NCBI RefSeq assembly: GCF_018771565.1
Contig: NZ_CP076326.1
Span: 496,001-560,000, forward strand
Direction: 5' to 3'
Length of the DNA stretch: 64,000 bases
DNA from: Thermoflexus hugenholtzii
GTDB taxonomy: Bacteria > Chloroflexota > Anaerolineae > Thermoflexales > Thermoflexaceae
In this document: piece by piece, positions 2,838 to 46,295 of the stretch
How positions within the stretch are numbered: the first letter of the stretch is position 1
Layout: each line of letters starts with the position of its first letter
Position numbers and translations under genes: made by a program
Notes under the pieces: model-generated
Seen by the model: only the letters and a program-made list of their open reading frames with translations
The model's database searches: none
Told to the model about the DNA's origin: nothing

Positions 2838-3929
2838 TCACGGATCTTCGGAGCCCCCAGACGCTTCCAGGGTCCAGGGTTGGGGGGCGACCAGCTCCCC
2901 CTGGGCTTGTAGCAGAAGGCCGATGCGGGCCTCTCGCGCGAGCTCCAACGCCCGACGATCCAGAACCACCCCGAAGATCAGGGGCAGCACAGGGCCTCGC
3001 ACGCCATATGCGCGCAGAGCTTCCTGCACGGCGGCGTTGCGCAGCAGGTCCGCGAAATCGTGGACCGCGCGGGGCCCGAGACGGGCCTTTACGGAGATGA
3101 GAAGCCAGGCCTCTTCGCCGTCGGGCCCGCGCACCCGGGCGATCCCGTCCAGCTCCCCAATCCGGTCAATGGCCAGGGTGGCGATCGGCTCCAGGAGGAC
3201 GTAACCGCGCTCCGCCAGATAGCGCTGCACGGCTTCCACCATCTGGCCTTCCACGGTCACGCCGACGGTCTGGCCGAACCGGTCCAGGGTGCGCTGGAAC
3301 TGTTCCTGGCGTAGAAGGACCTGCCGCAGGGTCTCCTCTGTGCGGCGCTGGGCCTCGGCGAGTTCGGCGAATCGGCGCTCGGTCTCGGCGCGGTATTCCA
3401 GGAACTCCTGACGATGCGCTACGAACTCCTGGCGGTGGGCGGCGAACTCTTCGTAGTGGCGGCGCTGGGCTTCGGCGAGTTCGGCGAATCGGCGCTCGGT
3501 CTCGGCGCGGTATTCCAGGAACTCCTGACGATGCGCTACGAACTCCTGGCGGTGGGCGGCGAACTCTTCGTAGTGGCGGCGCTGGGCTTCGGCGAGTTCG
3601 GCGAAACGCCGGTCAGTCTCGGCACGGTATTCCAGGAACTCCTGGCGGTGGGCCGTGAAAGTCTCGCTCAGGTTGCGAAGGGCCTCGGCGAGCTCGGCGA
3701 AGCGGCGGTCGGTTTCGGCCCGGTGGGCGGCCAGGGCTTCCTCGGTGCGGCGCTGGGCCTCGGCGAGTTCAGCGAAACGCCGGTCGACCAGCTTGTGGAG
3801 CTCCCGGAATGCGTTCGGAAGATTCAACAGCTCATCCGTCAGGAGCAAGCGGCGCAGCTCCTTCCGCCACTCCTCGTGTTGCTCCAGCAGTCGAACCAGA
3901 TCATGGAAATCCGTGATGGTGAACGCCAT
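2838..3929 (-). CDS. Coiled-coil protein with 39-residue tandem repeats and a C-terminal PD-(D/E)XK-like domain
   Basis: A 363-residue protein of uncertain function. Residues about 40-215 are almost all charged helix of the type RRFAELAEAQRR/HYEEFAAHRQEF, a long coiled coil containing two exact 39-residue repeats plus degenerate copies. The C-terminal 130 residues (from VGVTVEGQMVEAVQRYLAERG) resemble the nuclease-like fold of DUF3782-type proteins. In the ELDGIARV ... LLISVKARL region, however, the usual E-x-K is S-V-K, so catalysis is doubtful. The start is placed at the internal ATG (3929, MAFTITDFHDLV) with GAGGG upstream; an in-frame ATG at 3953 is the alternative. It is transcribed toward the pheS T-box leader. 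Such proteins are common in Chloroflexota and Cyanobacteria, and no role is established. Confidence 0.7.
   Translation of the reverse strand: MAFTITDFHDLVRLLEQHEEWRKELRRLLLTDELLNLPNAFRELHKLVDRRFAELAEAQRRTEEALAAHRAETDRRFAELAEALRNLSETFTAHRQEFLEYRAETDRRFAELAEAQRRHYEEFAAHRQEFVAHRQEFLEYRAETERRFAELAEAQRRHYEEFAAHRQEFVAHRQEFLEYRAETERRFAELAEAQRRTEETLRQVLLRQEQFQRTLDRFGQTVGVTVEGQMVEAVQRYLAERGYVLLEPIATLAIDRIGELDGIARVRGPDGEEAWLLISVKARLGPRAVHDFADLLRNAAVQEALRAYGVRGPVLPLIFGVVLDRRALELAREARIGLLLQAQGELVAPQPWTLEASGGSEDP
3364..3597 (-). repeat. Two identical 117-bp tandem repeats inside the coiled-coil gene
   Basis: Bases 3364-3480 and 3481-3597 read identically, and the period is a multiple of three, so reading frame is kept and each unit adds 39 residues. 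Flanking copies continue in diverged form. Identity at the DNA level, including third codon positions, points to recent duplication or gene conversion. Confidence 0.9.
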
Positions 3930-11848: not shown

Positions 11849-13417
11849 ATGACGGCGCTGGAGCTGGACGGCGAACATCTCACCCTGGAGGATGTGGTGG
11901 CGGTAGCCCGGGGACGGCGCCCGGTGGCCCTGGCCCCCGAGGCCTGGGCTCGGGTCCGACGAAGCCGGGAGGCGGTGGAGCGATTGCTCGCCCGGGGGGC
12001 GGTGATCTACGGGGTGACCACCGGGTTCGGACATCTGCGGAACATCCGCATCTCCCCGGAGCAGGCGTCGCTTCTGCAGCACAACCTGTTGCAGAGCCAC
12101 GCGGTCGGGGTGGGACCGGAGCTCTCGGAGGAGCAGGTGCGGGCGATGATGGTGGCCCGGCTGAACTCCCTGGCCCGGGGCCACTCCGGGGTCCGCCCGG
12201 AGGTCCTCCAGCTGCTCATCGAGATGCTCAACCGGGGGGTCCATCCCGTGGTCCCGGCCCAGGGCTCCCTGGGGGCCAGCGGGGACCTGGCGCCGCTGGC
12301 CCATATGGCGTTGCCGATGATCGGCCTGGGGGAGGCCATCGTGGAGGGCCGGCGGCTGCCCGGGGCGGCCGCCCTGGAGGCGGCGGGGCTGCGGCCGCTT
12401 CGGCTGGAGGCCAAGGAGGGCCTGGCCCTGATCAACGGGACGGCCTTCATGGCCGGGATCGGCGCCTTGGTCACTTACGACGCCGAGATCCTGGTGCAGA
12501 CCGCGGACGTGGTGGGGGCGATGACCTTGGAGGCCCTGGAGGGATCCGCTGTCCCCTTCGACGAGCGCCTCCACCGGGTGCGGCCCCATCCCCGGCAGAT
12601 GGACTGCGCGGCGTTCCTGCGGGCGCTGTTAGAGGGCAGCGAGCTGCTGAGCGATCCCCAGCGCCCCTCCCGGGTGCAGGATGCTTACTCCCTGCGCTGC
12701 ATGCCCCAGGTGCACGGCGCAGTGCGGGACGTGGTGGCCTACGCCCGCTGGGCTTTAGAGATCGAGCTGAACAGCGCCACGGACAACCCGCTCATCTTCT
12801 GGGAGGAAGGGGAAGCGGAGCCCACGGTCCTGTCGGGGGGGAATTTCCACGGCGAGCTGATCGCCCTGGCCATGGATTACCTGGCCATCGGGTTGGCGGA
12901 GCTGGCCAACATCTCGGAGCGGCGCCTCAACCGGCTGCTGGATCCGGCGGAGAACGAAGGGCGGTATCCTCCCTTCCTGGCCCTGGAGCCGGGGCTGCAT
13001 TCCGGCTTCATGCTGGTGCAGTATACGGCGGCGGCCCTGGCCTCGGAGAACAAAGTGCTGGCCCACCCGGCCAGCGTGGACACGATCCCCTCCTCGGCGA
13101 ACACGGAGGATCACGTGAGCATGGGCGCCACGGCCGTGCGCCACGCGGAGATGGTGTTGCGCAACGCCCAGCGGGTGGTGGCTGCGGAGCTGTTCGCGGC
13201 GGGCCAGGCCATCGACCTGCGCCGGCGGCAGGCCGGTCGTCCGCTGCGGATGGGGAAGGGGACGGCGGCGGCCTACGCCCTCCTCCGCCAGCACGTGCCC
13301 TTCCTGGAGGCCGACACGGTGATGGCGCCGTGGATGGAACGGGCCTGCCGGCTGGTGGCGGAAGGATACCTCCTGCGCGCCGCCCAGGAGGGCATCGCCG
13401 GCCTGCATGCCGAATGA
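11849..13417 (+). CDS. hutH: Histidine ammonia-lyase
   Basis: This 522-residue enzyme converts L-histidine to trans-urocanate and ammonia, the first step of histidine breakdown. The A-S-G triad that cyclises to the MIO electrophile lies at residues 143-145 in GSLGASGDLAPLAHMALPMIG. The active-site tyrosine loop YGVTTGFG and the later NATDNPL-type ELNSATDNPLIF stretch are present. Start at the ATG at 11849: AGGAGG (11835-11840) is eight bases upstream, while the in-frame GTG at 11843 is only two bases from it. No hutU or hutI is nearby. The last codons and stop lie inside the first unit of a hairpin repeat array, so the C-terminal tail may have been set by repeat insertion. A tyrosine or phenylalanine lyase/aminomutase is a less likely alternative. 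Confidence 0.93.
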   Translation: MTALELDGEHLTLEDVVAVARGRRPVALAPEAWARVRRSREAVERLLARGAVIYGVTTGFGHLRNIRISPEQASLLQHNLLQSHAVGVGPELSEEQVRAMMVARLNSLARGHSGVRPEVLQLLIEMLNRGVHPVVPAQGSLGASGDLAPLAHMALPMIGLGEAIVEGRRLPGAAALEAAGLRPLRLEAKEGLALINGTAFMAGIGALVTYDAEILVQTADVVGAMTLEALEGSAVPFDERLHRVRPHPRQMDCAAFLRALLEGSELLSDPQRPSRVQDAYSLRCMPQVHGAVRDVVAYARWALEIELNSATDNPLIFWEEGEAEPTVLSGGNFHGELIALAMDYLAIGLAELANISERRLNRLLDPAENEGRYPPFLALEPGLHSGFMLVQYTAAALASENKVLAHPASVDTIPSSANTEDHVSMGATAVRHAEMVLRNAQRVVAAELFAAGQAIDLRRRQAGRPLRMGKGTAAAYALLRQHVPFLEADTVMAPWMERACRLVAEGYLLRAAQEGIAGLHAE

Positions 13418-14030
13418 ATTCGGCCTCAAGAGGCCTTCGGCCGACGGTCGGCCTGCGCCGACCGGGAGGTATCTTTTGCGTCGGCGAAGGCCGACGCCCG
13501 GCGCGCCAGCGCCTTGGAAGGCCGATTTCAATCGGCGCGAAGGCCTTCGGCCGGCGGTTAGCTTGTGCGCCGAATGAATTCGGCCTCAAGAGGCCTTCGG
13601 CCGACGGTCGGCCTGCGCCGACCGGGAGGTATCTTTTGCGTCGGCGAAGGCCGACGCCCGGCGCGCCAGCGCCTTGGAAGGCCGATTTCAATCGGCGCGA
13701 AGGCCTTCGGCCGGCGGTTAGCTTGTGCGCCGAATGAATTCGGCCTCCAGGGGCCTTTGGCCGACGGTCGGCCTGCGCCGACCGAAAAACATTCCCTGCG
13801 TCGGCGGAGGCCGACGCGGGGCGCGGAGCGCCTAAGAGGGCCGATTTCAATCGGCGCGAAGGCCTTCAGCCGATGGTCAGCTTGTGCGCCGAATGAATTC
13901 GGCCTCCAGGGGCCTTCGGCCGACGGTCGGCCTGCGCCGACCGGGAGGGGGTTTGGGCGTCGGCGGAGGCCGACGCCTGGCGCGGAGCGCCTGAGGAGTC
14001 TGATTTCAATCGGCGCGAAGGCCTTCGAAA
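13409..14030 (+). repeat. Hairpin repeat array 1: four about 160-bp units
   Basis: Four tandem units begin at 13409, 13569, 13729 and 13888 with GCCGAATGAATTCGGC. Units 1 and 2 are essentially identical; 3 and 4 diverge mainly in loops and linkers. Each unit is a chain of short palindromes built on GCCGA/TCGGC: GCCGAATGAATTCGGC, GGCCTTCGGCC, GCCGACGGTCGGC, GGTCGGCCTGCGCCGACC, GCGTCGGCGAAGGCCGACGC, GGCGC-loop-GCGCC and GCCGATTTCAATCGGC. The same family recurs at 39.4-40.2 kb. Frames are open on both strands because stops are rare in this sequence, but the 160-base period is not a multiple of three, so it is not a coding repeat. The strand label is arbitrary. The array fills most of the gap between hutH and the next kinase gene. 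Confidence 0.93.
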
Positions 14031-38730: not shown

Positions 38731-39243
38731 TCAGGAAACCGGCTCCGGGACGGGCTGGGCGCGCCAGATCCGGGTGGGATCCTGGATGCGGTCCGGGAAC
38801 AGGATGCCGTCCAGGTGGTCGATCTCGTGCTGGAAGACCCGGGCTACCAGCCCCTCGGCCCGGATGCGGACCCGCCGCCCCTCCGGGTTGAGGCCGCGCA
38901 CGATGACCCACCGGGCGCGGGGGACCCAGCCATACCATCCGGGGATGGAGAGGCAGCCCTCCACCCCTTCCTCGATCTCCGGGGAGGCCTCGACGATCTC
39001 CGGGTTGATCACCGCGTAGAGCACCCCGCTGCCCGGCACCTCTTCGTCCTCGGGGACCTCGACGATGATCACCCGCAGGGGCTCTCCCACCTGGGGGGCG
39101 GCCAGGCCGATCCCCTCCGCCGCCCGCATGGTCTCGACCATGTCCGCGATGAGGCGGCGCAGGGCCGGGGTGATCCGCGTCACCGGCTCGGCCTTCCGCC
39201 GCAGGATGGGCTGGTCCGCCATCACGATAGGCCGCACCGCCAT
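38731..39243 (-). CDS. def: Peptide deformylase
   Basis: This 170-residue metalloenzyme removes the formyl group from the first methionine of new proteins. All three motifs are intact: GIGLAAPQ (residues 44-51), EGCLSIP (95-101, C97 binds the metal) and QHEIDHLDG (138-146, with H139, catalytic E140 and H143). AGGAGG lies 10 bases before the ATG at 39243. Longer open frames extending upstream run into the hairpin repeat array and are not coding. The gene begins about 130 bases from that array. Confidence 0.96.
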   Translation of the reverse strand: MAVRPIVMADQPILRRKAEPVTRITPALRRLIADMVETMRAAEGIGLAAPQVGEPLRVIIVEVPEDEEVPGSGVLYAVINPEIVEASPEIEEGVEGCLSIPGWYGWVPRARWVIVRGLNPEGRRVRIRAEGLVARVFQHEIDHLDGILFPDRIQDPTRIWRAQPVPEPVS

Positions 39244-39378
39244 CGGTTCGTTCCCTCCTGATCCCATGCGGATTGGATGCAGATCCCTGCGGCGCGTGAC
39301 ATCCCGGGAGCCTGGTCGTCCCGCCGCGCGTGTTCTCATTTTAAACGGAGTCCCCTCGTTTTTGCGATCCCGGGGGGT

Positions 39379-40235
39379 CGAATGAATTTGACCTGGGGAG
39401 GCCTTCGGCCGACGGTCGGCCTGTGCGCCGAATGAATTCGGCCTCGAGGGGCCTTCGGCCGACGGTCGACCTGTGCCGACCGAAAAGCGTTCCCTGCGTC
39501 GGCGGAGGCCGACGCCTGGCGCGGAGCGCCTTGAGGGGCCGATTTCAATCGGCACAAAAGCCTTCGGCCAACGGTCGGCCTGTGCCGACCGAAAAGCGTT
39601 CCCTGCGTCGGCGGAGGCCGACGCTTGGCGCGGAGCGCCTTGAGGGGCCGATTTCAATCGGCACAAAAGCCTTCGGCCGACGGTCGGCCTGCGCGCCGAA
39701 TGAATTCGGCCTCGAGAGGCCTTCGGCCGATGGTCGGCCTGCGCCGACCGGGAGGGGGTTCTTTGCGTCGGCGGAGGCCGACGCTTGGCGCGGAGCACCT
39801 TGAGAGGCCGATTTCAATCGGCACAAAAGCCTTCGGCCAACGGTCGGCCTGTGCGCCGAATGAATTCGGCCTCGAGGGGCCTTCGGCCGACGGTCGGCCT
39901 GTGCCGACCGAAAAGCGTTCCCTGCGTCGGCGGAGGCCGACGCCTGGCGCGGAGCGCCTTGAGGGGCCGATTTCAATCGGCCAAAAGCCTTCGGCCGACG
40001 GTCGGCCTGTGCCGACCGAAAAGCGTTCCCTGCGTCGGCGGAGGCCGACGCCTGGCGCGGAGCGTCTTGAGAGGCCGATTTCAATCGGCACAGAAGCCTT
40101 CGGCCGACGGTCGGCCTGCGCCGACCGGGAGGGGGTTCTTTGCGTCGGCGGAGGCCGACGCCTGGCGCGGAGCGCCCTGGGAGGCCGATTTCAATCGGCG
40201 TGAAAAGGCCGACGCGGGGCGCGGAGCACGCCGAA
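39379..40235 (+). repeat. Hairpin repeat array 2: modular palindromic repeats
   Basis: A second array of the family seen at 13.4-14.0 kb. The hairpin GCCGATTTCAATCGGC occurs six times, at about 39538, 39648, 39808, 39967, 40074 and 40181. Spacings fall into two classes, 107-110 and 159-160 bases. The longer spacing contains an extra module of about 52 bases beginning GCCGAATGAATTCGGCCTC; the shorter lacks it. Each unit also has GGTCGGCCTGTGCCGACC, GCGTCGGCGGAGGCCGACGC and GGCGCGGAGCGCC hairpins. A decayed copy with GCCGAAATGAATTTCGGC lies at about 40330. No unit encodes a protein. The strand label is arbitrary. Confidence 0.93.
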
Positions 40236-40362
40236 GGAATTCGCCCTTGGTCGGACGCATTCGTGTGCTCGTGTCTCTATTTGTGGACAGCCCGCCGCGA
40301 CCGGTGAGGCCCCGGTAGGCTGCTGGCAGGCCGAAATGAATTTCGGCTTACATCTTACATCT

Positions 40363-40426: not shown

Positions 40427-42775
40427 ATGGATGGGGAGCGCGGGTATCCCTGGCATCTGCCGCCGGCCCTGGCCCTGCATCTCGAGATCCTCCGCTACCC
40501 GATCCTGGCCCGCCGGATCCGGGAGCGGATGCGCCAGGAGCTCTTCGCCCGCGGCATCATCACCCCCGAGGCCTTCGAGGCCGAGGTCCGGGAGAAGGCC
40601 CTGATCTCCCAGCGCCTGGAGGGGCTCACCGATCCCTTCGGCCAGGAGTCGGCGGAGGAATGGGAGGAGCGGCTGGCCCAGATCCGGGACCAGCTGACGG
40701 AGTTCTATTTCGCCTACAACCTCCCCCACAGCCTGTTCGTGGAGATCGTCCGCTCGGTGCTGGAGGAGCGGGCGCCGGGGCACCGCCCGGTGCTGACCTT
40801 CAACCCGGAGCTGGCCCCGGTGGAGGCCCTCTTCGCCCAGGCCGAGGCCTACGAGGCCGCGCCCCCGGAGCAGCGCAAGGCCGTGCTCCCCCATCTGAAG
40901 GAAATCCGCGTGGTGCTCATCAAGAGCATCATCAGCGATCAGCTGGCCTTCGTGGGGATCGCCCGGGAGCACTTCACGTCGGCGGACCTGCGGGCCATCT
41001 ACGAGCGGCGCATCGGGCAGGGGAAGATCGGGGGCAAGGCGGCGGGGATGATGCTGGCCTGGCGGGTGCTCCAGACTCCTGACCCGGAGGATCCCTTCCC
41101 CCTGGCCGAGCGGGTGGGCATCCCGGACTCCTGGTTCATCGGCGCGGACGTCTTCTACGAGTTCATGGAGCGCAACGGGCTGCTCCCCTACCTCAACCAG
41201 AAATACAAAACCGAGGAGGAGATCCGGGCGGAGTTCCCCGAGGTGCAGCACGCCTTCCTGGAGGGCCGCTTCCCGGGCTGGTTCGTCCAGCGGCTGCGGG
41301 ACCTGCTCCGGGAGATCGGGCCGCACCCTCTGATCGTGCGGTCCTCCAGCCTCCTGGAGGACAACTTCGGCGCTTCCTTCGCCGGCAAATACGAGAGCCA
41401 CTTCTGCCCCAACCAGGGCTCTCTGGAGGAGAACCTGGAGGCGCTGCTGACGGCCATCAAACGGGTTTACGCCAGCGTCTTCCACCCGGACCCCCTGATC
41501 TACCGGCGGCACGTGGGGCTGCTGGATTACGACGAGCGGATGGCCATCCTGCTCCAGAAGGTGGAGGGGATGCGCTACGGGCGCTACTTCTTCCCGCCCG
41601 TCGCGGGTGTCGCCTACTCCCGCAACCCCTTCCGCTGGAGCCCGCGCATCCGGCGGGAGGATGGCTTCGTGCGGATGGTGGTGGGCCTGGGCACCCGGGC
41701 GGTGGAGCGGGTGGCCCACGATTACCCCCGCATGGTCGCCCTCAGCCACCCGGGCCTGCGCCCGGAGAAGGACCCCCAGGCCATCGCCCGCTACGCCCAG
41801 CACTTCATCGACGTCATCGACCTGGAGGAGAACACCTTCCGCACCCTGCCGGTCCACGAGGTGCTGGCAGGGGATTACCCCGGCCTGGCTTACCTGGCCG
41901 TGGTCCACAAGGGGGACTACCTCCAGCCCCTCATCGGCCGCAACGTGGACCCCCGCGCCCTGGTGCTCACCTTCGATCGCCTGCTCCAGGAGACGGACTT
42001 CGCGCCGCTGATGCGGGCGGTGCTGCGCAAGCTGGAGCGCTACTACGGCCGCCCGGTGGACGTGGAGTTCGCGGTCCTTCTGGGGGAGGGCCGGCCGCCC
42101 CGGCCGATGCTGCGGCTGCTCCAGTGCCGCCCGCAGACCGACCGGGAGCAGGCGGCCCGCCCCCGCATCCCCCGGGACGTCCCGGCGGAGGATGTCCTGT
42201 TCACTTCGTATCAGATGGTGCCCCACGGGGCGGTGTATAACATCCGCTACGTCGTCTACGTGGACCCGATGGCCTACACCCGCATCCCGGAGCTGAGCGC
42301 GCGTCTGGAGATCGCCCGGGTGATCGGGCGGCTGAACCGTCGGCTGGCGGGGGAGCGGTTCATCCTCATCGGCCCCGGGCGCTGGGGGAGCGTGAACCCG
42401 TATCTGGGGGTGAAGGTGGGCTACGCGGACATCTACAACGCCCGGGCCCTGGTGGAGATCGGGCTGCGGGGCGCTCAGGGGGCGCCCGAGCCCTCCTACG
42501 GCACGCATTTCTTCCGCGATCTCATCGAGGCGCAGATCTATCCCCTCGCCCTGATCCCGGACGACGAGCGGGCGGCCTTCCGGGCCGATTTCTTCCTCCG
42601 GGCGCCCAACATCCTCGCCGCGCTGCTGCCGGAGGAGGCCTCCCATGCGGGGGTGGTGAAGGTCATCGACATCCCCGCCGTGGCCAGCGGCCGGTATCTC
42701 CACCTGGTGATGGACGGCGATCAGGAAGAGGCCATGGCCTACCTGGGGCCGAAGGTGGAGGATCCGGGCGCCTGA
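40427..42775 (+). CDS. PEP synthase/PPDK-type ATP- and pyruvate-binding domain protein
   Basis: A 782-residue protein related to the N-terminal nucleotide-binding part of PEP synthase and pyruvate phosphate dikinase. The phosphate-binding segment LIVRSSSLLEDNFGASFAGKYES (about 302-325) is conserved, and QGKIGGKAAGMMLAW (about 205) is the G-G-K-A/G loop that starts the domain. RPMLRLLQCRPQ (about 565) is the usual end of the ATP-grasp unit. The phosphohistidine swivel domain and the PEP-binding barrel of true PEP synthase are not seen; the last 200 residues are different. It may act on a partner or be regulatory. It is followed by tgt. Confidence 0.8.
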   Translation: MDGERGYPWHLPPALALHLEILRYPILARRIRERMRQELFARGIITPEAFEAEVREKALISQRLEGLTDPFGQESAEEWEERLAQIRDQLTEFYFAYNLPHSLFVEIVRSVLEERAPGHRPVLTFNPELAPVEALFAQAEAYEAAPPEQRKAVLPHLKEIRVVLIKSIISDQLAFVGIAREHFTSADLRAIYERRIGQGKIGGKAAGMMLAWRVLQTPDPEDPFPLAERVGIPDSWFIGADVFYEFMERNGLLPYLNQKYKTEEEIRAEFPEVQHAFLEGRFPGWFVQRLRDLLREIGPHPLIVRSSSLLEDNFGASFAGKYESHFCPNQGSLEENLEALLTAIKRVYASVFHPDPLIYRRHVGLLDYDERMAILLQKVEGMRYGRYFFPPVAGVAYSRNPFRWSPRIRREDGFVRMVVGLGTRAVERVAHDYPRMVALSHPGLRPEKDPQAIARYAQHFIDVIDLEENTFRTLPVHEVLAGDYPGLAYLAVVHKGDYLQPLIGRNVDPRALVLTFDRLLQETDFAPLMRAVLRKLERYYGRPVDVEFAVLLGEGRPPRPMLRLLQCRPQTDREQAARPRIPRDVPAEDVLFTSYQMVPHGAVYNIRYVVYVDPMAYTRIPELSARLEIARVIGRLNRRLAGERFILIGPGRWGSVNPYLGVKVGYADIYNARALVEIGLRGAQGAPEPSYGTHFFRDLIEAQIYPLALIPDDERAAFRADFFLRAPNILAALLPEEASHAGVVKVIDIPAVASGRYLHLVMDGDQEEAMAYLGPKVEDPGA

Positions 42776-44786: not shown

Positions 44787-46295
44787 TCACTTGCCCTTTC
44801 CCTTCTCCTGGCCGGGCGGCGTCTCCGGCCGCTTCTCCTGCCCGGGCGGGGTCTCAGGCCGCTGCTCCTGGTTGGGCTTGCTCTCGGGCCGGTTCTCCAG
44901 CCCGGGCGGCATCTCCGGCCGCTTCTCCAGCCCGGGCGGGGTCTCGGGCCGTCCGAGGCCCTTCTTCAGCGGCGTCGCCGGCCCGGCCTCCACGTTCTCA
45001 CAATGCGGGACGCCCATCATCCCTTCGTTGAAGGCCGCCAGGACCTCCGCCCAATGGATCAGGGTCTGGCCCTCCGGCGACGAGGCCGGGACGCCGGGGC
45101 TGTGGCTCCCGAACCAGGCCGTGGCGTCACTGATCACTGCCGCCACGGCCGGAGGCGGCGTCGCCCCGTTCGCCACGTTCAACACCGCCGCGATGTATTG
45201 ATGGGCCAGGATGTAATACGCGTCCCCGCGAGGCGCCGTCCAGAGGACCTCCAGCCAGGTCTTCCCGCTGGAGAAGAAGGGATCATTCGGGGAGTGGCCC
45301 TCCGGCCAGGCGTTCGGGTGGGTCTTCCAGAAGCCCTGGGTGAGGACGCAGCCGACCGGGCACGGTGGGGCCGTCAGGTGCACCACCGCCTCCGCCGTGC
45401 GGGTTTCATGGGTGTCCCCTTCGGTCAGGGTGGCGACGTTGTGGAGCTCCGCCGTGGCGTCGCAGACGCTCTCGTTGGTGATGGTCTTGTGGAAGGAGAC
45501 GGAGCCGGAGTCGTGGAAGGTCCACGGCCCGGTCTCGCTGGGCGCGCAGGTGAAGCCGGCAGGGCAGTGCTCCTCATCGCTCACCGAGGCGGATTCGTCC
45601 ACCTCGACCACCGTGGGCGAATTCGGCAGGGAGAAGCCCTCCTTGGGCTCCGGCCCGAAGGGCTCGCCGAGGTGCCCGGAGTGATTGGTGATGGTGACGA
45701 TGGCGTGGTTGCGATACAGGGCGCCCGGGATCGGGGTGAAGGGGATCTCGTAGGCATAACAGTGGGACTTGCCGGGCTCGAGCACCGGCTTTTCGCTGAC
45801 GTCTACCGTCACCGTGAGGAAGGGGGTGAAGTCCGTCACCGCAGGAGGATTCTTGTATTCCACGACGTCGGTGATCGCCAGGCCTTCGGTGGCCACCTCC
45901 CCCGTGTTGGTGACGCAGATGGTGCCGCGCACGCCGGCGGATTCGTGCTCCCCGACCTTCTGCCGGGTTGCCGCGATGGTATACGTCACCTCGCCGCTCT
46001 CCCCGCGGGCGAGGGTCAGGGAATCTGGAGACACCGACTTGGTGAGGGACCAGTCATAGGTGATGATCCGGGTCCAGAAGCCCTCCGCGGTTTTGTCGGC
46101 CTCAATCGAGGTGCCGGACTGGTCCTGCTGGGGGTCCGCGCGGGGCGGGGCGATCTCCCGACCTCCTGTCCATCCGGAGACCACGGCGGCGAGGCCAGAG
46201 GAGCTTCCGGCCGCCGCCATCGCGGTGCCGAAGGCCACCAGGGCCAGGGCCGCCACGCCGATCACGACGGTCAGCCTCAACCATCCGCTTCGCAT
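44787..46295 (-). CDS. Secreted protein with a WKTHP motif and a 10-residue repeat tail
   Basis: A 502-residue exported protein. The start MRSGWLRLTVVIGVAALALVAFG ... AMAAAG is a signal peptide. The middle (about 75-300) looks like bacterial Ig-like/DUF11-type beta domains with repeated cysteines and segments such as CVTNTGEVATEGLAITDVV. Residues about 310-345 contain CPVGCVLTQGFWKTHPNAWP, a motif found in uncharacterised surface proteins. The C terminus is five 10-residue repeats of the type RPETPPGQEK and a GKGK end. It is possibly cell-wall associated through the basic, proline-rich tail. AGGAGGTGACC precedes the ATG, and a TATAAT box is at 46378. The function is unknown. Confidence 0.8.
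   Translation of the reverse strand: MRSGWLRLTVVIGVAALALVAFGTAMAAAGSSSGLAAVVSGWTGGREIAPPRADPQQDQSGTSIEADKTAEGFWTRIITYDWSLTKSVSPDSLTLARGESGEVTYTIAATRQKVGEHESAGVRGTICVTNTGEVATEGLAITDVVEYKNPPAVTDFTPFLTVTVDVSEKPVLEPGKSHCYAYEIPFTPIPGALYRNHAIVTITNHSGHLGEPFGPEPKEGFSLPNSPTVVEVDESASVSDEEHCPAGFTCAPSETGPWTFHDSGSVSFHKTITNESVCDATAELHNVATLTEGDTHETRTAEAVVHLTAPPCPVGCVLTQGFWKTHPNAWPEGHSPNDPFFSSGKTWLEVLWTAPRGDAYYILAHQYIAAVLNVANGATPPPAVAAVISDATAWFGSHSPGVPASSPEGQTLIHWAEVLAAFNEGMMGVPHCENVEAGPATPLKKGLGRPETPPGLEKRPEMPPGLENRPESKPNQEQRPETPPGQEKRPETPPGQEKGKGK
44802..44951 (-). repeat. Five 30-bp tandem repeats encoding the proline-rich tail
   Basis: Five in-frame 30-base units encode the 10-residue repeats of the secreted protein: three are close to RPETPPGxEK, one is RPEMPPGLEN and one RPESKPNQEQ. 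The DNA is also repetitive, so copy number may vary between strains. Confidence 0.88.

Follow-up and report, generated by a model that had tools for sequence, protein, structure and literature searches.

The window analysed here, a stretch of 64,000 nucleotides from Thermoflexus hugenholtzii (contig NZ_CP076326.1, positions 496,001 to 560,000), contains tandem arrays of hairpin-bearing repeats, of which array 2 is flanked by two divergent genes (Table 1). In this array, the hairpin named D (GCCGATTTCAATCGGC) is present in six exact copies, at 39538, 39647, 39807, 39966, 40074, and 40184, with successive spacings of 109, 160, 159, 108, and 110 bp, which confirms the two spacing classes (here 108–110 and 159–160 bp) described in a first-pass annotation of this DNA as 107–110 and 159–160 bases. 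A second hairpin, B (GCCGAATGAATTCGGC), occurs in three exact copies, at 39427, 39695, and 39855. Searches for D and B allowing up to two mismatches returned 26 and 24 matches, respectively, compared with 0.04–0.05 in shuffles. As read from the sequence, the long unit has the order A-B-A-C-D and the short one A-C-D, A being a block of 26 bp (GCCTTCGGCCGACGGTCGGCCTGYGC). The optional module proposed earlier is real, although it measures 50 bp (the 16-bp B, 8 bp, and a second 26-bp A) instead of 52, and array 2 starts about 2 bases before 39379, at a variant B hairpin (GTCGAATGAATTTGAC). In array 1, B is present in each unit, as claimed. Other repeats have been observed in the window: a lone hairpin of a stretched B type (GCCGAAATGAATTTCGGC) lies at 40330–40347, between array 2 and the next gene start; a 30-bp tandem repeat of about five copies occupies the 3' end of a minus-strand gene (44802–44951) and encodes a Pro/Glu-rich tail; and at 3342–3724 about 2.6 tandem copies of a 117-bp repeat overlap a 96-bp repeat.

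Table 1. Features of array 2, its surroundings, and array 1, in window coordinates.
Feature	Coordinates	Strand	Remarks
Array 1	13409..14014	+	four long units, B module in each
Left neighbour gene, peptide deformylase-like by sequence	38731..39243	-	points away from array 2
Array 2	39377..40199	+	unit string B'A-BACD-ACD-ABACD-ABACD-ACD-ACD
Left-end hairpin B' (GTCGAATGAATTTGAC, variant B)	39377..39392	+	left boundary of array 2
B hairpin GCCGAATGAATTCGGC opening optional B-A module	39427..39442	+	exact match
D hairpin 1	39538..39553	+	exact match
Short unit, 109 bp, A-C-D, lacking the B module	39554..39662	+	
Long unit, 160 bp, A-B-A-C-D	39663..39822	+	
Long unit, 159 bp, A-B-A-C-D	39823..39981	+	
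Short unit, 108 bp	39982..40089	+	
Short unit, 110 bp	40090..40199	+	last D hairpin (40184–40199) is the right end of array 2
Degenerate B-like hairpin (GCCGAAGGAATTCGCC)	40230..40245	+	immediately beyond array 2
Right neighbour gene, 782 aa, PEP-synthase/pyruvate phosphate dikinase-like by sequence	40427..42775	+	points away from array 2

The same organization recurs throughout the genome, a single contig of 3.317 Mb in which the D hairpin occurs in 124 exact copies and B in 86. A profile search covering the genome stretches around arrays delimited 36 arrays longer than 100 bp, with a median length of 636 bp and a total of 23.9 kb (0.72% of the genome). Their ends are fixed, with a B-type hairpin on the left in 33 of the 36 and D on the right in 31. 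The two unit lengths recur as well, with modes of the D–D distance at 108–113 bp (36 cases) and 154–163 bp (48 cases), and the commonest strings between successive D hairpins are ABAC (about 45, partial parses counted) and AC (about 37), followed by ACBAC forms and a few doubled modules that show a 50-bp A+B period. These strings support the modular structure, with gain and loss of the module, that had been deduced from the window. It is very unlikely that array 2 is an assembly artefact, because the genome is a single contig, the pattern is found at about 36 separate loci, and a relative whose flanks are about 95% identical has a shorter array at the same site. The repeat has no match in the phage collection searched. 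At one locus (G000:C1:1619395-1620458), D spacings of 273 and 113 bp recur in a higher-order repeat, which indicates that several units were duplicated as one block.

The distribution of the arrays varies among Thermoflexus species, where presence at a given locus is not conserved and the same loci bear either shorter arrays or clean empty sites. The T. hugenholtzii draft assembly (G004) is about 95–97% identical to this genome in most aligned array flanks, and its array at the site orthologous to array 2 has 288 bp versus 822 bp here, although repeat collapse is possible in a draft; the suggestion that the arrays could serve to type strains is thus plausible. Another example is the array at 2378938, present in G004 and absent in G008, G001, G005, and G003, and other loci are similar. 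The target sequence and the exact insertion junction could not be fixed, given that the flanks at empty sites are too diverged. Next to arrays, a tandem stretch with a period of about 138 bp is common to Ca. T. japonica (L119, 6013–6575) and this genome (L094, 1665–3463), and may encode a repeat protein.

A search of the genome with the Y1_Tnp model revealed one transposase gene, tnpA, inside an array (1,827,597–1,828,028). This array (G000:C1:1826938-1829062) lies about 9 kb from dnaA (1,838,122), and its site is empty in G001, G008, G005, G003, and G002; in G004, one unit of 128 bp is found there. Homologues 78–82% identical are located inside arrays of their own repeat variant in Ca. T. japonica (G008) and SKYG36 (G003), so that in three Thermoflexus species tnpA is embedded in an array, each time at another site and next to different genes. 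In SKYG36, a variant B hairpin (GCCGACTAAAGTCG) has been found four times, always around tnpA, and in Ca. T. japonica the tnpA site is one that is empty in G005. The protein has 144 aa and, in an alignment of 19 proteins, the motifs DHLH, KWQG, and YIQRQKEHH; its HUH motif is DHLH in Thermoflexus and DHVH in the others, compared with DH[IV]H in Table 1 of PMC6006769. It matches Pfam Y1_Tnp and passes the IS200 model NF033573 (58.3 bits, cut-off 55), while it fails the NCBIfam model REP_Tyr_transpos (25.4 bits, cut-off 80), and its predicted fold (mean pLDDT 76) matches the IS200/IS608/ISDra2 transposases (Foldseek 2f4f and 2vic). By sequence and predicted structure, TnpA is an IS200-like HUH/Y1 transposase, and it appears to resemble TnpA_Y1 subclass 1.2, a class assignment that comes from motifs only. 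Around the other Y1_Tnp genes of the genus no D-like hairpin was found nearby, and two of the five tested have repeats in their flanks.

Relatives of this gene have been detected, by a scan of named genomes, in Chloroflexota, Armatimonadota, Cyanobacteria, Gemmatimonadota, Acidobacteriota, and others, and in related families the flanks of tnpA keep the order of hairpins with a different sequence. For example, tnpA lies between B-A-A' and C-c-D in the genomes G138, G089, G146, and G053, and the array unit therefore corresponds to the two arms joined without the gene. Units and tnpA run in the same direction in the seven loci read, once the match strand is allowed for. In a comparison of 12 units (11 genomes), covariation was seen in hairpins B, A, A', and C, with 96.8% of cells paired and 13 pairs changed on both sides, a level reached in none of 500 shuffles; for D, covariation was counted manually on selected hairpins, MAFFT having misaligned D in several rows. 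When aligned by hand, B and D prove to be the same hairpin in opposite orientations, with reverse-complementary loops (GA in B, TC in D), and a single strand of the unit can fold as one long hairpin in which the B-A arm pairs with the c-D arm. In 63 tnpA relatives, 236 hairpins (stems of 7 bp or more) lie within 450 bp of the gene; distal flanks, of comparable total length, contain 29, and shuffles 19. Repeats across the gene are inverted in 41 of these 63 and direct in 36. When restricted to the 51 relatives whose flanks are complete, these counts become 34 and 26 near the gene, versus one and one distally. The terminal inverted repeats of the relatives, which are not present at every locus, mostly measure 40–100 bp and are built from two hairpins; in nine loci read closely they span 47–80 bp, mostly with two hairpins each, and in some Abditibacteriaceae, Gemmatimonadetes, and Deltaproteobacteria they are up to 98–100% identical. 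At one locus (G051:C39), a tnpA relative has lost its HUH motif through a short deletion, and unit-like hairpins remain around the gene.

The explanation that we favor, with a probability of roughly 0.8, is that the arrays are tandem MITEs of a Y1-transposase element, mobilized by TnpA. It draws on the dispersal of the units, their fixed ends, the empty sites, the presence of tnpA in arrays, the architecture common to other families, the covariation, the IS200/IS605-type profile and fold of TnpA, and the local homogenization described below. The unit B-A-A'-C-c-D (about 110–130 bp) would correspond to an IS200-like element that has a single gene, tnpA, reduced to its two terminal inverted repeats, which are joined where the gene would lie, between hairpins A' and C. 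The HUH/Y1 transposase would recognize B and D on single-stranded DNA and move units into intergenic sites; within arrays, the units are duplicated locally and homogenized. Three results count against this reading, namely the impossibility of fixing a junction, the units of G004 and G001, and the lack of strand bias. In T. hugenholtzii (G004) and G001 the matching tnpA was not found, despite 30 and 37 D hairpins, so that units persist there without it; the gene may have been lost, or may be missing from the drafts. IS200/IS605 elements are expected to show replication-strand bias, and the arrays of this genome show none (20 versus 16, with the origin assumed at dnaA).

Alternatively, the arrays could be structural or regulatory elements selected by the host (RNA hairpins in the role of a terminator, an mRNA stabilizer, or an insulator of divergent promoters, or else a nucleoid or gyrase site, as has been proposed for BIMEs), their mobility being incidental. 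Compensatory changes that conserve the hairpins would agree with this, as would the intergenic location of the arrays, which fall between tandem (22), divergent (10), and convergent (4) gene pairs against a background of 186, 23, and 22 (231 pairs, orientations from our own gene caller), so that divergent pairs are relatively frequent (10/36 vs 23/231, Fisher p 0.006). This excess, however, may merely reflect longer intergenic regions. Convergent pairs are not enriched (4/36 vs 22/231); given this mostly non-convergent placement and the position of array 2 itself between divergent genes, a terminator role is not favored. Furthermore, the 36 arrays have no consistent orientation relative to genes, no Rfam family matches the repeat, and presence is not conserved locus by locus in the genus, all of which makes selection by the host an unlikely origin.

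A plain minisatellite or VNTR, that is, an intergenic sequence duplicated by chance, grown by replication slippage alone, and spread without a transposase, has also been considered. Two observations would suit it: the length of arrays varies between close relatives, and C-D cores are 86% identical within arrays versus 78.7% between them, a difference attained in none of 1000 permutations. Units are thus locally duplicated and homogenized within arrays, but slippage accounts for growth and not for dispersal. This origin is quite improbable, given that about 36 dispersed loci in one genome have a common unit and are bounded by B and D at fixed ends, that sister species have empty sites, that tnpA is embedded in arrays of three species, and that the architecture around tnpA is the same in other families.

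Within the arrays, exchange at the GCCGA/TCGGC stems, by which the first-pass annotation explained gain and loss of the module, starts from the stems that B and D have in common, but it is hardly credible, since the 25.3 kb of arrays, with 123 exact copies of D and 86 of B, contain no exact B/D hybrid hairpin, A has a single consensus in all three contexts (D-A-B, D-A-C, and B-A-C), and doubled modules show the 50-bp A+B period. Because no hybrid exists and A is identical in every context, the likely point of exchange is the 26-bp A direct repeat. The best-supported cause would be slippage or recombination between copies of A, through which the 50-bp A-B module would come and go.

With TnpA-mobilized MITEs as the preferred reading, several known systems offer likenesses. 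Among these are the REPINs and BIMEs mobilized by RAYT (TnpA_REP), as in Pseudomonas fluorescens SBW25 (PMC3116915, PMC2817692); tandem REPIN clusters have already been described (PMC3116915). Both systems feature short extragenic palindromes in more than 100 copies, a unit made of inverted hairpin pairs, a Y1 transposase gene flanked by the repeats, and tandem clusters; in Thermoflexus, the dispersed palindromes amount to the 124 D and 86 B hairpins already counted. However, the RAYT tyrosine motif is Y---NP, whereas TnpA of Thermoflexus has YIxxQKEHH and does not belong to the REP-associated class; the GT[AG]G foot of REPtron hairpins is absent beside the outer B and D hairpins; and the array unit, with four to six hairpins and 110–160 bp, is unlike a REPIN.

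In the case of IS200/IS605 elements (IS608, ISDra2), the HUH/Y1 fold and the hairpins at the ends are shared, but these elements have direct hairpins and no terminal inverted repeats, while the ends here form inverted repeats in which B and D have opposite orientations, and TnpA differs by its Y---Q--HH motif and its single copy in this genome. Another example is that of the PATEs of Haloquadratum walsbyi, terminal-only IS605 derivatives (PMC3119063). Like the array units, PATEs are short elements without a transposase that derive from Y1-type transposons, have palindromes near their termini, and show core deletions by direct repeats, although they are defined by having no terminal inverted repeats, of which the array units, themselves in tandem arrays, are made. 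In TIRYTs/TIRtrons, a Y1 gene lies between long terminal inverted repeats, and dispersed copies also occur (PMC3733652), a layout similar to that of Thermoflexus; nevertheless, most TIRYTs fall in subclass 2.1, with an HTH at the C terminus and GGGGWSAS motifs (PMC6006769), whereas TnpA is a short IS200-like core. As for MITEs, the units are short and non-coding, and their two arms have matching counterparts in the B-A-A' and C-c-D arms on either side of tnpA in other families, although this genome showed no autonomous copy in which the arms are intact.

The TnpA_Y1 subclass 1.2 has been reported as "REP: no", generally without the typical terminal IS200 structures, and mostly in Cyanobacteria and Bacteroidetes (Quentin et al., 2018, PMC6006769), these absences being a reported trait and not a criterion of the clustering in that work. 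TnpA of Thermoflexus shares with it the Y---Q--HH and WQ motifs, the size (144 aa here, about 148 aa there), the low copy number, and a position close to but distinct from IS200; in contrast to the reported absence of REP, hairpin-rich terminal inverted repeats occur among the relatives, in Chloroflexota as in other phyla, and Thermoflexus also has dispersed miniature arrays. In the literature searched, which did not extend to subscription papers or ISfinder, no report of subclass 1.2-like transposases with such repeats was found. It is possible, if doubtful, that these elements form a separate superfamily of HUH/Y1 elements with subclass 1.2-like TnpA in many phyla, in which double-hairpin terminal inverted repeats let either strand serve as substrate and movement itself builds the tandem miniature arrays, for instance via single-strand circles. 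The arrays provide a clear candidate for the substrate, with hairpins and species-matched pairs, of a group of Y1 transposases reported without cognate DNA, as well as fast-changing markers between closely related Thermoflexus strains. Finally, they work like REPIN/RAYT systems and MITEs without being members of the REP/RAYT group by protein class or foot sequence, and in this way they extend REPIN-like systems beyond the RAYT classes.
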